The translations under genes were made by a program, and so were the position numbers. Under the pieces are notes generated by a model. It worked only from the letters and a program-made list of their open reading frames with translations, was not told the DNA's origin and did no database searches. Shown piece by piece: positions 34,681 through 39,682 of a stretch of DNA of 64,000 nt. This DNA is from Hoeflea sp. BAL378 (GTDB taxonomy: Bacteria > Pseudomonadota > Alphaproteobacteria > Rhizobiales > Rhizobiaceae): the NCBI RefSeq assembly GCF_000759435.1, contig NZ_JRJG01000080.1, positions 1 through 64,000 on the forward strand, in the 5' to 3' direction. The stretch's first letter is position 1, and each line of letters opens with the position of its first letter.

Positions 34681-35907
34681 TCATCCGTTCCTCATCGCGT
34701 CCCACACCCGGTCGGCATGGGTGGCGTCGATGTCCGAGAGCGCGCCGATGCCGCAGCCGTCCAGCACCAGCGGCATTTCGTCGACATAGAGATCGACCGG
34801 GATATCGCTCGCCGCCGAGGCGTTCGAGTTCCTGAGAACTTCCCGCAGCGCCGGCTCCATCAGGTCGAAAGCCGCCGCGCCATGGCCGACAAAGGCCACC
34901 CGGAACGGATCGACCAGCGCGAAGATGCCCGCCAGGCCCGATCCCAGCGCACGCCCGGCCGAAGCGAAAGCCGCGGCCGCCAGCGCGTCGCCCTTGCGGG
35001 CGGCTTCGGCGATGCGGAAGATCTCCGCCGGTTCGACATGGCTGTCCGGCTTCACGTCGGGCCGCTTGCCGCGGTAGCGGCGCAGGATCGCATAGTCGCC
35101 GGCGTCGGCCTCGATGCAGCCGCGCGACCCGCACCGGCACAGCGCGCCGTCGGTCTGGTGCAGCATGTGGCCGAATTCCGTGCCCGACGACTGTGTGCCG
35201 TTGATGATCCGGCCGCGCAGGAACAGCCCCATGCCGACGCCGTGGGCGAGCAGTATGGCCGCGAAATTGTCGCTGTAGCGCTCCGGATAGCGCCAGTTGA
35301 GGGCGCGGGCGATCAGGTCGCAGTCGTTTGCGAGCCGCGTCGGCGCGCCGAATTCCTGTTCCAGCCAGAAGGCCATCGGAATGTCGGTGAGCGGCGTCAT
35401 CGGCGAGCGCAGCAGCTTGAGCCCGGCGATGTCGGTCGTGCCCTGCACGCCGATCGAGATGCCGCCGAGCTGGCTGGCTGGGAGCCCTGAGGCGTCCCAG
35501 GTCTGGCGGATCTCGGTGATCAGGGTCCGGCGGAAATCCTCCATGGAGACATTGGCCATGTCGAGATGGAAATGCTCCCGCGCGATCACCTTGCCCGAAT
35601 AGTCGACGATGGCGACATTCACCGCGCCGATCTTGAGAATGATCAGCACCGCGTGGCGGAACTGCGGGTTGACCGACAGGCCGACGCTCGGGCGGCCTCG
35701 GCCCACGCTGGCACCGGTTTCGGCGCTGCGACCAATGAGCACGCCCTCGGCGATCAGTTCGCTCGAGATCGTCGACACCGTCGCCGGACTGAGCGAGGCG
35801 GCCTGGGCGATTTCGCCACGGCTCACCGTGCCCCCGCGCCGCACGATCTCGATGATGCGCAGGCGATTGCGTCGCCGCATGTCGTCGGAACGAAGAACCA
35901 TCGTCAT
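34681..35907 (-). CDS. ROK family transcriptional repressor (XylR-like)
   Basis: A 408-residue ROK regulator. The N-terminal winged helix (MRRRNRLRIIEIVRRGGTVSRGEIAQAASLSPATVSTISSELIAEGVL) precedes a sugar-kinase-like domain with GGISIGVQGTTD, a DCDLIARAL segment in the active-site region and the ROK zinc motif CRCGSRGCIE (CxCGxxGCxE). The long helix and divergence from a xylF-type operon point to a sugar-responsive repressor. The ATG at 35907 is tentative; GAGGAGG lies 12-13 bases upstream. A 28-base inverted repeat directly upstream is the likely operator. The ligand could be xylose or another pentose. Confidence 0.9.
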   Translation of the reverse strand: MTMVLRSDDMRRRNRLRIIEIVRRGGTVSRGEIAQAASLSPATVSTISSELIAEGVLIGRSAETGASVGRGRPSVGLSVNPQFRHAVLIILKIGAVNVAIVDYSGKVIAREHFHLDMANVSMEDFRRTLITEIRQTWDASGLPASQLGGISIGVQGTTDIAGLKLLRSPMTPLTDIPMAFWLEQEFGAPTRLANDCDLIARALNWRYPERYSDNFAAILLAHGVGMGLFLRGRIINGTQSSGTEFGHMLHQTDGALCRCGSRGCIEADAGDYAILRRYRGKRPDVKPDSHVEPAEIFRIAEAARKGDALAAAAFASAGRALGSGLAGIFALVDPFRVAFVGHGAAAFDLMEPALREVLRNSNASAASDIPVDLYVDEMPLVLDGCGIGALSDIDATHADRVWDAMRNG

Positions 35908-35936
35908 TGTCCCGGTATGCCTCCTCACAATCCGGG

Positions 35937-35966
35937 TGCAATGCAATATTTACGTTGCATTGCAAC
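35937..35966. promoter_or_regulatory. Inverted-repeat operator candidate for the ROK regulator
   Basis: TGCAATGCAA (35937-35946) and its exact complement TTGCATTGCA (35955-35964) are separated by 8 bases; nested within it is the 13-base palindrome GTTGCATTGCAAC (35954-35966). A second perfect palindrome, CACAATTGTG, lies at 35974-35983. All are in the ROK/xylF divergent region. A TTGACA at 35991-35996 could be a -35 for xylF, though its -10 is poor. Confidence 0.6.
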
Positions 35967-36119
35967 AACTTGTCACAATTGTGTTTCATGTTGACATGCA
36001 AGCGCTTTTGAGTCACGATTTTTTTCGAGGCTCGAATTAAAAAGCTTCAGAGGCGTACCTGGCGCCTGATTGCCGGGCATGTTTGTAATTGTGCATCCTG
36101 ATGCACCCGGGAGGTTTAG

Positions 36120-37154
36120 ATGAGAAAGTTAGTGAGCACTCTTGTTGCTGGCGTCGTCATGACAGCCGCAATGGCCGGCGTCGCCCTGGCGGACGGCAAG
36201 AAGATCGGCGTGTCCTGGTCGAATTTCCAGGAAGAACGCTGGAAGACCGACGAAGCCGCGATGAAGGCCGCCATCGAGGCCGCCGGGGACACCTATGTGT
36301 CGACCGACGCGCAGTCGTCCGCAGCCAAGCAGCTCTCCGATGTGGAAAGCCTGATGTCGCAGGGCGTCAACGCGCTGATCATCCTGGCGCAGGACACCCA
36401 GGCGATCATTCCGGCCGTGACCGCCGCTGCCGACGAAGGCATTCCGGTCATCGCCTATGACCGCCTGATCGAAGACAGCCGCGCCTTCTACCTGACCTTC
36501 GACAACGTCGAAGTCGGCCGCATGCAGGCCCGCGCCGTTCTCGCCGCAGCGCCCAAGGGCAACTATGTGATGATCAAGGGTTCGCCCACCGATCCGAACG
36601 CCGACTTCCTTCGCGGCGGCCAGCAGGAAGTCCTGCAGGCGGCCATCGACGCCGGCGACATCAAGATTGTCGACGAGGCCTATACCGACGGCTGGCTTCC
36701 CGCCAACGCCCAGCGCAACATGGAGCAGATCCTGACCGCCAACGACAACAAGGTCGATGCCGTGGTCGCTTCCAACGACGGCACCGCCGGCGGCGCTGTC
36801 GCTGCGCTCACCGCGCAGGGCATGCAGGGCATTCCGGTCTCCGGTCAGGACGGCGACCATGCCGCCCTCAACCGCGTCGCCAATGGCACCCAGACCGTCA
36901 GCGTCTGGAAGGACGCCCGTGAACTCGGCAAGAATGCCGGCGAAATCGCCGCCAAGCTCGCTGGCGGCACGGCGATGTCCGACATCGAGGGCACGATCGA
37001 GTGGACCTCGCCCGGCGGCACCAAGATGACCGCCCTGTTCCTTGCTCCGGTTCCGATCACCAAGGACAATCTGGCCACGGTCGTCGATGCCGGCTGGATC
37101 AGCAAGGAAGACCTCTGCCAGGGCGTCTCCGGCGGCCCGGCTCCCTGTAACTAA
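36120..37154 (+). CDS. xylF: Sugar ABC transporter substrate-binding protein (XylF-type)
   Basis: A 344-residue periplasmic-binding-protein-like protein of the CUT2 family. The signal peptide [24 protein letters not shown] is followed by [49 protein letters not shown] and [31 protein letters not shown], a pattern close to D-xylose-binding proteins. GGGAGG sits 5 bases before the ATG. It is divergent from the ROK repressor and followed by a hairpin and then the permease gene. Xylose is the likeliest ligand, but related pentoses or hexoses are possible. Confidence 0.9.
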
Positions 37155-37185
37155 GCTTCAGGCTCAGTTATAAATCGCGTCAACT

Positions 37186-37213
37186 GCGTCCTCATCCTTC
37201 GGGGTGGGGACGC
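37186..37213 (+). other. Intercistronic hairpin after xylF
   Basis: A 12-bp stem with two G-T wobbles (37186-37197 with 37202-37213) closed by a TTCG tetraloop, between xylF and xylH. No T-run follows, so read-through to the permease is expected, with the xylF message stabilised. Differential expression of binding protein over permease is the likely purpose. Confidence 0.8.
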
Positions 37214-37241
37214 TTGACGCCCATTATCCGGATTACGGCCC

Positions 37242-38543
37242 ATGACCGAGACCTCCCCAGCCACGAGTCCGCAGGCGAAGCCACGCAGCTTCTTCGCCGC
37301 GCTCGAGTTCGACACACGACTTATCGGAATGATCGGCGCATTCGTCGTCATCTGCCTGATCTTCAATCTTCTCACCGACGGCCGTTTCATGACGCCGCGC
37401 AACATCTTCAACCTGACGATCCAGACCGCGTCGGTGGCGATCATGGCGACGGGGATGGTGTTCGTCATCGTCACCCGCCATATCGACCTGTCGGTCGGAT
37501 CGCTTCTGGCGACCTGTTCGGCGATCATGGCGATGATGCAGACCGTGGTCACGCCGGAATGGCTGGGCCTGGGGCTCAATCATCCGCTGACGATGCCGAT
37601 CGCCATCCTGGTCGGCATGCTGGCGGGCCTTGTGATCGGCGCCTTCCACGGCTGGCTGATCGGCTATCTGTCCATTCCGGCCTTCATCGTCACGCTCGGC
37701 GGGTTCCTGGTCTGGCGCAACGTCGCCTGGCACCTGACCGACGGCCAGACCATCGGCCCGCTCGACGAGAATTTCCAGCTTTTTGGCGGCATCAACGGCA
37801 CGCTCGGCGAGACCTGGAGCTGGGTCGTGGCCGCGCTCGCGGTGCTCGGCGCCTTCTATGCGATCTTCCAGTCGCGCCGGAACCGGGTCCTGCACGAGTT
37901 CCCGGTCAAGCCGCTTTGGGCGGAGTTCTTCATGGGCGCCATCGCCACCGCCGCGATCGTCGGCCTGGTGGCGGTGCTCAACGCCTATGAGATCCCGACC
38001 GCCCGGCTCGTGCGCATCTTCGAGGCGCGCGGCGAGACCATGCCCGAAGGCCTGGTCCTGGGCTACGGCCTGCCGATCTCGGTGCTGCTGCTGATCCTGA
38101 TCGCCTTCATCATGACCATCGTCGCCAGGCGCACCCGGCTCGGCCGCTACATCTTCGCCACCGGCGGCAATCCGGAGGCCGCTGAACTGGCGGGCATCAA
38201 CACGCGGCTGCTCACCGTCAAGATCTTCGCCATCATGGGCGTGCTATGCGCCATCTCGGCGGTTGTCGCCTCGTCGCGGCAGACCTTCCATTCCAACGAC
38301 ATCGGCACGCTCGACGAGTTGCGCGTGATTGCCGCGGCGGTGATCGGCGGCACGGCGCTGTCGGGCGGCATGGGCACCATCTACGGCGCCATCCTCGGCG
38401 CGCTGATCATGCAGAGCCTGCAGTCGGGCATGGCCATGGTCGGCGTCGACGCGCCCTACCAGAACATGGTGGTGGGCACCGTGCTGGTTCTCGCCGTCTT
38501 CATCGACATTCTCTATCGCCGCAGGACGGGAGACAAAACATGA
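37242..38543 (+). CDS. xylH: Sugar ABC transporter permease (XylH-type)
   Basis: A 433-residue CUT2 permease with about ten membrane segments. Motifs include VIVTRHIDLSVGSLLATCSAIMA, FHGWLIGYLSIPAFIVTLGGFLVWRN and RYIFATGGNPEAAELAGINTRL, and a long cytoplasmic/periplasmic insertion near residues 200-270, all as in XylH. It overlaps the ATPase gene by 4 bases. It forms the channel for the sugar delivered by XylF. Confidence 0.92.
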   Translation: MTETSPATSPQAKPRSFFAALEFDTRLIGMIGAFVVICLIFNLLTDGRFMTPRNIFNLTIQTASVAIMATGMVFVIVTRHIDLSVGSLLATCSAIMAMMQTVVTPEWLGLGLNHPLTMPIAILVGMLAGLVIGAFHGWLIGYLSIPAFIVTLGGFLVWRNVAWHLTDGQTIGPLDENFQLFGGINGTLGETWSWVVAALAVLGAFYAIFQSRRNRVLHEFPVKPLWAEFFMGAIATAAIVGLVAVLNAYEIPTARLVRIFEARGETMPEGLVLGYGLPISVLLLILIAFIMTIVARRTRLGRYIFATGGNPEAAELAGINTRLLTVKIFAIMGVLCAISAVVASSRQTFHSNDIGTLDELRVIAAAVIGGTALSGGMGTIYGAILGALIMQSLQSGMAMVGVDAPYQNMVVGTVLVLAVFIDILYRRRTGDKT

Positions 38544-39316
38544 CCACGCCTCTCGTTGAAATGCGCGACATGCAGAAGTCGTTCGGCGGCATCAAGGCCG
38601 TCGATCACGTCACCATCGATCTCTACCCCGGCGAGGTCGTCGGCGTCCTGGGTCACAACGGCGCCGGCAAGTCCGTGCTGATGAAGATGCTCTCGGGCGC
38701 CCTGCCGCGCGACGGCGGCGAGATCTTCATCAACGGCCAGAAGGCCACGATCAACAATCCGCGCGACGCCCGCAATCTCCAGATCGAGACGATCTACCAG
38801 TATCTCGCACTTGCCGACAATCTGGACGCGGCGTCGAACCTGTTTCTCGGACGCGAGCTGACAACGCCCCTGGGCTTTGTCGACGACGCCTTGATGGAGG
38901 CGGAGACGCGCAAGATCATGAAGCGTCTCAACCCGAACTTCCGGCGCTTCCACACGCCGGTGTCGGGGCTCTCGGGCGGCCAGCGGCAGTCGGTCGCCAT
39001 CGCCCGCGCGGTCTATTTCAACGCCAAGATCCTGATCATGGACGAGCCCACCGCGGCGCTCGGCGTGCAGGAAACCCGCATGGTGGCGGAGCTGATCGAC
39101 CAGCTCAAGTCAGAGGGAATTGGCATCCTGCTGATCGACCACGACATTCACCAGGTGAAGATGCTGTGCGACCGGGCCAATGTCATGAAGAACGGCCAGC
39201 TCGTCGGCACCGTGAAGGTCGATGAGGTCTCCGAGGACGATCTGCTGGGCATGATTATCGCCGGCAAATGCCCGCCAAACGCCACGCCTGGACCGGGCGC
39301 CGTCCAGACCGCCTGA
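38540..39316 (+). CDS. xylG: Sugar ABC transporter ATP-binding protein, single ABC domain (XylG-type)
   Basis: A 258-residue ATPase: Walker A GHNGAGKS, Q-loop IYQYLALADN, signature LSGGQRQSVAIARA, Walker B ILIMDEPTAALG, switch His in LLIDHDIHQV. Escherichia coli XylG has two fused ABC domains (~510 residues); here there is one, as in the FrcA fructose transporter of rhizobia, so it should work as a homodimer. It ends the operon, followed by a strong terminator. The sugar is inferred from xylF. Confidence 0.9.
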   Translation: MTTPLVEMRDMQKSFGGIKAVDHVTIDLYPGEVVGVLGHNGAGKSVLMKMLSGALPRDGGEIFINGQKATINNPRDARNLQIETIYQYLALADNLDAASNLFLGRELTTPLGFVDDALMEAETRKIMKRLNPNFRRFHTPVSGLSGGQRQSVAIARAVYFNAKILIMDEPTAALGVQETRMVAELIDQLKSEGIGILLIDHDIHQVKMLCDRANVMKNGQLVGTVKVDEVSEDDLLGMIIAGKCPPNATPGPGAVQTA

Positions 39317-39349
39317 TCACAGCGCCTCCCATTACCGATCCCATTGAAG

Positions 39350-39376
39350 CCGGGGCTGCAAAGCCCCGGTTTTTTT
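39350..39376 (+). terminator. Rho-independent terminator of the xyl operon
   Basis: A perfect 8-bp stem CCGGGGCT/AGCCCCGG (39350-39357 with 39362-39369), GCAA loop and seven T directly after. Confidence 0.95.
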
Positions 39377-39499
39377 GTTGCGTTGCCGCAAATGCGCCCG
39401 AAGCGGACGATCTCCCCGAGTTGCTTTCTGCCCAAAACACGTAAGGTAACAGAGGCTTGCGCAAGTTTACCAAAAGATAAAGAATCTTGAAAAACCCTA

Positions 39500-39529
39500 T
39501 TGCAATGCAGCATGAACTGTACCATATCT
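39500..39529 (+). promoter_or_regulatory. Candidate promoter of the cuckoo-type small RNA
   Basis: TTGCAA (39500-39505) and ATATCT (39524-39529) with an 18-base spacer; this would start RNA near 39536. A second TTGAAA at 39487-39492 is an alternative -35. The stretch 39377-39535 is AT-richer than its surroundings and carries no gene. Confidence 0.45.
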
Positions 39530-39534
39530 GTGTC

Positions 39535-39682
39535 AACGCCACGTCGAACACCTCCTCCTCCCAGTTCGGCATGGCAGTAGTCGCAACGGTCAGCGCCGGG
39601 ATCCTCCTCCCAAGCACCGGTCTGGACGTCGCGACGAAGTACAAGCGCCTGTCGGGTCTGACCCGGCAGGCGTTTTGTTTTT
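39535..39682 (+). ncRNA. Cuckoo/alpha-r14-type small RNA with two anti-Shine-Dalgarno hairpins
   Basis: Two hairpins expose the same pyrimidine motif. Hairpin 1 has the stem GTCGAAC/GTTCGGC (39543-39549 with 39564-39570, one wobble) and its loop contains CCTCCTCCTCCC (39551-39562). Hairpin 2 has the stem GCCGG/CCGGT (39595-39599 with 39617-39621) and its loop contains CCTCCTCCC (39603-39611). A 12-bp terminator hairpin then ends in a T-rich tail. Duplicated CCUCCUCCC loops followed by a Rho-independent terminator are the defining layout of the rhizobial cuckoo (alpha-r14) RNAs, which are proposed to pair with ribosome binding sites. The ~148-nt length fits. The 5' end is a guess from the promoter; the target set is unknown. 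Confidence 0.78.
39646..39682 (+). terminator. Terminator of the small RNA
   Basis: A 12-bp stem (39646-39657 with 39661-39672, one G-T wobble) with a 3-base loop, then TTTTGTTTTT. It has no protein gene upstream to serve. Confidence 0.92.

Follow-up and report, generated by a model that had tools for sequence, protein, structure and literature searches.

The closest described relatives of the RNA reported here are the alpha-r14 RNAs, which according to the available text of PMC10746234 form three hairpins with the anti-Shine-Dalgarno motif CCUCCUCCC in each. That text also describes activation of the alpha-r14 RNA NfeR1 by LsrB through a TGCA-N6-GCAT box (PMC10746234). In the portions of the literature available, NfeR1 is described as silencing through its anti-Shine-Dalgarno motifs, with the ntrB translation initiation region as one target. 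A wider cuckoo grouping is outlined in section 2.7 of PMC3927594: the number of hairpins varies, the loops carry CCUCCUCCC and the stems are variable. PhaR (AniA), a regulator that enters the argument below, has an operator consensus, TGCRNYGCASMA, that was obtained in Bradyrhizobium from footprints and promoter comparison, as given in the accessible part of PMC6201568.

The window (the whole 64-kb stretch of DNA that was analysed) very probably contains a small RNA gene of approximately 150 nt at 39533..39682 on the plus strand, both ends being predicted. It is of the cuckoo type and a divergent relative of ar14. The probability that this locus is a real small RNA is high.

A probable two-loop RNA beside the xyl operon

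The xylFHG operon occupies 36120-39316 of the window. Between the xylG stop (39316) and the small RNA lies an intrinsic terminator with a 12-pair stem, a loop of four and a T-run (39346..39373, plus strand). A gene for a ROK regulator (ORF 34681-35946; Pfam ROK) lies on the strand opposite xylF, and a lysR-type gene is found downstream of the small RNA. XylF scored above its NCBIfam cut-off; XylH, XylG and LysR matched transporter and LysR models below the cut-offs. The earlier note on this DNA had taken the small RNA for an independent gene past the xyl terminator, a reading supported by the intervening terminator and by a conserved promoter region of the RNA's own.

The predicted fold contains two motif-bearing hairpins and a terminator, all on the plus strand. 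Hairpin 1 (39538..39575; helix 1 of the covariation analysis) has the loop ACCUCCUCCUCCCA at 39550-39563, the full reading of which is CCTCCTCCTCCC. Hairpin 2 (39580..39635) is a long composite stem made up of helices 2 and 3, with the loop GAUCCUCCUCCCAAGCA at 39600-39616. Motif search and orthologue alignment placed CCUCCUCCC at 39554..39562 in loop 1 and at 39603..39611 in loop 2. Both copies of the corresponding DNA 9-mer, CCTCCTCCC, are where the earlier note had put them, and both are unpaired in the fold. The Rho-independent terminator (39643..39682; terminator scan and helix 4) has a motif-free loop and a U-rich tail. Its stem-loop (39643-39675) contains 15 pairs and not the 12 first assigned to it; the 12-pair stem is that of the xyl terminator.

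The 148 nt from 39535 to 39682 folded at -67.6 kcal/mol, against a shuffle mean of -48.1 kcal/mol (sd 3.9), giving a z of -5.0 with none of 200 shuffles as stable. The 5.48-Mb genome has 54 copies of the 9-mer CCTCCTCCC. Same-strand pairs of it no more than 60 nt apart were found at only two sites in the genome, namely the window locus and the canonical ar14 locus.

Family membership and conservation

No Rfam family reached its curated threshold in the 64-kb window. In a permissive search the top match was RF02344 (ar14) at 39533-39678, covering model positions 1-123 with 38.1 bits (E = 1.2e-5 for all families over 471 bases; 3.4e-5 genome-wide). A covariance-model scan, the check proposed in the earlier note, returned ar14 with this E value and with a score under the curated gathering threshold of 58.8 bits, so that strict RF02344 membership by score does not hold. 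The 17 Hoeflea orthologues of the window RNA scored 26.9-45.6 bits with the same model. Strict alpha-r14 membership also fails because the motif occupies only two of the three hairpins, the terminator loop being without it. At the promoter, TTGCA and CATAT are conserved, the TGCA-N6-GCAT box is absent and a strict scan for sigma-70 promoters before the small RNA was negative. The criteria of the wider cuckoo grouping gave a different outcome: two hairpins with conserved loops and covarying stems were seen across the 17 orthologues, and homology was provided by the ar14 covariance-model match. A linked DUF1127 gene of the CIN1 type was absent from the window locus; such linkage is not universal among cuckoo RNAs. 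Cuckoo RNAs with two to four hairpins were reportedly described by Reinkensmeier and Giegerich in 2015. Of the cuckoo/alpha-r14 assignment made earlier, the cuckoo part therefore stands, on the full-length ar14 match, the conserved anti-Shine-Dalgarno hairpins and the covariation, and the strict alpha-r14 part falls on score and terminator loop. Two anti-Shine-Dalgarno loops plus a terminator had been offered as the definition of alpha-r14; since the RNAs of that name are described with three motif hairpins in the available text of PMC10746234, the arrangement instead fits the wider grouping of variable hairpin number outlined in the accessible part of PMC3927594.

The canonical ar14 RNA of the same genome scored 104.9 bits and lies on contig C19 among DUF1127 genes, with the same motif in three loops. 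Given this three-loop copy elsewhere in the genome, together with the orthologue and structure evidence, the two-loop RNA is a second, divergent cuckoo-type RNA of the genome and is genus-specific. Around the canonical copy (L001 1250-2400, G000:C19) two small DUF1127 genes were recognised by Pfam and a third by eye. The same region holds three TTGCRCTGCACAA stretches followed by CTATAT, each of which fits the PhaR consensus. In two other Hoeflea genomes (L180 in G008 and L189 in G017) an extra CCTCCTCCC in the upstream flank of the ar14 copy suggests four-loop RNAs.

A motif-like stretch, loosely defined, was present within the last 45 nt of 72 of 77 other ar14 matches (window orthologues excluded). 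The remaining five show that Hoeflea is not alone in having a bare terminator. Two of these (L222 and L219) have two full motifs and a plain terminator, two (L225 and L211) are alike with degenerate motifs, and the fifth (L220) looks mis-framed.

Orthologues were recovered by DNA search in 17 of 101 genomes (source genome included), all from a single genus and amounting to 17 of its 18 genomes. The 12 named records carrying the invariant 25-mer were all Hoeflea. The ar14 model likewise recovered the variant in 17 of the 18 genus genomes, the exception (G007) being a 75% complete assembly. An above-threshold ar14 copy was also present in all of the 18 but G006, whose assembly is 77% complete. 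A model built from the 17 orthologues matched 69 of 297 genomes of the order (source included) at E 0.01, in a search with strict filters and ten candidates scored per genome; the best match outside Hoeflea reached 43.7 bits versus 172.1. Of 24 order-wide loci listed, 14 were without CCTCCTCC and the ten with it look like ordinary ar14-type RNAs.

Within the 17 orthologues the 25-nt core around loop 2, CCGGGATCCTCCTCCCAAGCACCGG, is identical throughout, and the loop-2 motif is invariant. In loop 1 motif bases 1-8 are invariant and the last is nearly so; the stems vary. In the consensus structure 98.3% of cells pair, and 13 of 37 pairs show two-sided change, including five of ten pairs in helix 1. 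The inner stem of hairpin 2 (helix 3) is so nearly constant that it has no two-sided change. None of 500 shuffles was as good in pairing, two-sided changes or covariation score, and three of 500 matched the number of pair types; the consensus structure was derived from the tested alignment itself, which gives it an advantage over the slid controls.

In the loci of approximately 3.2 kb, both xylG and lysR lie within 1.5 kb of the RNA at 15 of 17 orthologues; L042 is without lysR and L054 without either gene. In the 8-kb records matched to these two contigs by length (L058 and L065) lysR lies several kb off, and L065 includes the end of xylG. XylG identity to the window protein is approximately 70% in six of the 16 other orthologues and at least 90% in nine, with no XylG seen in L054. 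LysR identity is at least 89% in the 14 of these 15 orthologues where it was seen. The XylG split indicates that two transporter versions share the site beside the small RNA. The 70% version occurs at L043, L046, L047, L049, L050 and L052; the versions belong to different Hoeflea species, as if one xylFHG cassette had replaced the other.

These data bear on two other explanations of the stretch. A 3' fragment of the xyl mRNA, left by processing or made by read-through, would agree with a start 216 nt past xylG, on the same strand and in conserved synteny, but it would have to cross the strong terminator in between, all 17 orthologues keep TTGCA and CATAT 18 bases apart before the RNA, and the RNA persists while the xyl version changes; we regard such a fragment as improbable. 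Still less credible is a short coding sequence or a chance purine/pyrimidine repeat. Forward frame 2 is open over approximately 150 nt in 15 of 17 orthologues, but their lengths (149-155; n = 17) do not change in threes, compensatory changes occur in three of the four helices and the covariance model gives homology to an RNA family. A coding role of the stretch is unlikely.

The promoter region and PhaR-like sites

A putative -35 element, TTGCAA (39500..39505), and a putative -10 element, CCATAT (39522..39527), were picked by eye on the plus strand with a 16-bp spacer. Approximately 55-70 bp before the predicted start lies the dyad TTTAYC-N4-GATAAA (39466..39481), present in full in ten of the 17 Hoeflea orthologues and in the relaxed form TTTAY-N5-GRT in 16. 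When a xyl regulator was considered as its reader, no second good copy of the dyad was found in the 64-kb window. One exact copy exists elsewhere in the genome (G000:C29:36734-36749; L067).

Overlapping the putative -35 is TGCAATGCAGCA (39501..39512, plus strand), an exact match to the PhaR consensus TGCRNYGCASMA. All orthologues but L051 (16 of 17) match the consensus in the 60 bp before the RNA, against a chance expectation of 0.009 per 60 bp per locus as judged from the remainder of these loci. L043 and L049 have variant matching sequences that differ only at positions the consensus permits. The consensus matches the genome 90 times versus 22 for the reversed pattern, so a single match says little and the weight rests on conservation and position. 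A PF07879 (PhaR family) gene is present in 17 of 18 Hoeflea genomes, the source included. A weight matrix was also built from 11 sites in promoters given as efficiently bound in the accessible part of PMC12542648, which are some of the sites of that kind. Among the 63,980 positions scored with this matrix, the window site comes third at 17.1 bits. That is less than the weakest training site (18.3) and far less than the sites at phasin (27.4) and phaZ (26.9) in this genome. Ranks 1 (35950) and 4 (35931) are a pair of PhaR-like palindromes, TGC-N3-GCA, that precede xylF (35931..35970). Neither fits the strict 12-base consensus, and the opposite-strand ROK regulator is just as plausible a reader of them. 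Rank 2 is a PhaR-like palindrome at 39373-39393, right after the xyl terminator.

The 10-mer TTGCAATGCA occurs eight times in the genome: at the small RNA promoter, before xylF, before a phasin gene, before a PHB depolymerase gene and at four other places. The phasin copy lies approximately 80-90 bp before the gene (start taken at MATKK) and fits the strict PhaR consensus; the depolymerase copy lies approximately 125 bp before its gene and is one base off. The latter gene, on C97, was also considered as a PHA synthase, which was ruled out by its NCBIfam identity as PHB depolymerase PhaZ. The S. meliloti phasin and depolymerase genes are PhaR-repressed according to the available text of PMC12542648.

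RNAs of the ar14 type were compared at 30 loci, the best-scoring ones, one per genome, from a search of 151 genomes of the family. The family is presumably Rhizobiaceae, from the Hoeflea records and taxonomy. The pattern YGCRNYGCASMA was found within 250 bp upstream of 25 of the 30, against approximately three expected, and the reversed pattern upstream of none. In eight of the 30 it is a minus-strand match at -52 or -53. The five loci without a site have DUF1127-like frames upstream, so their promoters may be further off; one ar14 locus with such a frame does carry a PhaR-consensus site. No good PhaR-like site was found at S. meliloti SmelA099.

Co-loss with phaR was followed in 12 genomes chosen because they are small, plus six others, and PF07879 was present in 11 of these 18. 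In the 12 small genomes the strict consensus lay within 250 bp of four of 12 loci with PhaR and one of 15 without. For the loose palindrome, at loci crudely classed as having no upstream DUF1127 frame, the counts were 11 of 12 with PhaR versus two of nine without (p 0.002). Removing the six PhaR-positive loci of the added genomes, whose promoters had been seen previously, left five of six versus two of nine (p 0.04), and removing also the misclassified L214 (PhaR-negative, with a DUF1127-like frame) left five of six versus two of eight (p 0.10). These p values treat the loci as unrelated, and the matches at L109 (PhaR-positive) and L211 (PhaR-negative) look accidental. One PhaR-negative genome (G101) retains an exact consensus site. 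Overall, co-loss leans weakly toward the PhaR link and is not significant once the biased and misclassified loci are out.

The same small RNA may instead have its -35 TGC-N3-GCA read by a LysR regulator of the LsrB kind, by the xyl ROK regulator or by RNA polymerase only, to which together we give nearly an even chance. The window has TGCA-N5-GCAT, a near form of the LsrB box with its spacing one base off. Common to the small RNA promoter and the xylF promoter beside the ROK gene is TTGCAATGCA; against this, the 400 bp before xylF in the named Hoeflea loci L055, L061 and L063 are without TGC-N3-GCA, bar one TGCCGCGCA in L061, and the contigs concerned, as matched by length, still keep the small RNA site (L052, L048 and L044). 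Any factor other than PhaR would also have to account for the consensus upstream of the 25 foreign ar14 loci and for the like sites before the phasin and PHB-depolymerase genes. A PhaR operator at the small RNA promoter is a new lead, predicted from motif evidence only.

In a literature search judged mostly from the listing of papers, none was recognised as linking PhaR to alpha-r14. A pull-down published for the S. meliloti NfeR1 promoter reports LsrB and NtrC; in the available text of that paper PhaR is absent and AniA appears once. Neither NfeR1 nor SmelA075 occurs in the main text of PMC12542648 as available. In S. meliloti, SMc02051, given as PhaR-repressed in the accessible part of the published record, has a TGCGATGCAGCA site at 1667000-1666980, approximately 0.5 kb from NfeR1 (1667613-1667492).

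Proposed function and known relatives

We consider it very likely that the locus encodes an independent, terminator-ended, trans-acting cuckoo RNA of approximately 150 nt that blocks Shine-Dalgarno sites; the PhaR part of the proposal is less certain. By analogy with characterised relatives (NfeR1), the two hairpins would keep CCUCCUCCC single-stranded and the loops would pair with purine-rich, GGGAGGAGG-like Shine-Dalgarno sequences of several mRNAs, blocking ribosome entry and probably lowering mRNA stability. PhaR bound at the -35 region might repress transcription of the RNA, as the motif suggests, and PHB granules might titrate PhaR and so relieve the repression. In a carbon-replete cell, genes for nutrient uptake, the neighbouring xylF perhaps among them, would then be translated less. 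The xylF Shine-Dalgarno sequence GGGAGG (36109..36114, plus strand) is complementary to CCUCCC of both loops. It is found in the xylF leaders of the window and five other loci; a sixth leader, in L064, is incomplete and has it too. Since GGGAGG is an ordinary ribosome site, xylF is a candidate and no more. A duplex prediction for the RNA with the xylF leaders gave long, implausible duplexes and was set aside.

With the window RNA a known RNA family gains a genus-specific member with two loops, which escapes the curated Rfam threshold. Control of cuckoo/alpha-r14 RNAs by stored carbon through PhaR is put forward as a proposal. If the PhaR link is true, part of the conserved alpha-r14 promoter sequence would gain a reader, and carbon storage would be tied to post-transcriptional control of nutrient uptake. 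More tentatively, and with the odds in our judgement against it, cuckoo/alpha-r14 RNAs may form a PHB-responsive layer in which PhaR sits on their promoters, PHB titrates PhaR and the RNAs silence uptake systems; the Hoeflea RNA lies beside a xylose-transport operon, with PhaR-like sites at the xyl promoter in some species. Such a layer would amount to a general switch from carbon storage to translation in Rhizobiaceae.

Among known systems, alpha-r14/NfeR1 (RF02344; S. meliloti and other Rhizobiaceae) shares with the window RNA the CCUCCUCCC loops, the variable stems, the Rho-independent terminator and a putative sigma-70-like promoter. The window RNA differs in having two motif loops and not three, a bare terminator, a length of 146-150 nt and not 123, and its TGC-N3-GCA at -35, whereas theirs lies around -50. 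SmelA075 of S. meliloti pSymA is likewise ar14-related (89.9 bits) and has an exact PhaR-consensus site, TGCATCGCAGCA, on the minus strand at approximately -56 to -45 of its annotated start. Unlike the window RNA, it contains three full CCTCCTCCC motifs. The Rhodobacter RNAs listed as RS0680a are, we assume, the CcsR1-4 RNAs. RS0680a likewise forms two stem loops with an anti-Shine-Dalgarno motif in each, as given in section 2.7 of PMC3927594. In the available text of PMC10253847, CcsR RNAs are described as processed from a transcript that includes the DUF1127 gene ccaF1 and has an RpoHI/RpoHII promoter; no DUF1127 gene adjoins the window copy. MmgR of S. meliloti, which belongs to a different RNA family (Rfam RF00519), is a described small-RNA target of repression by AniA/PhaR; according to the accessible part of PMC12542648, the efficiently bound promoter holds a TGCACCGCAGCA site.
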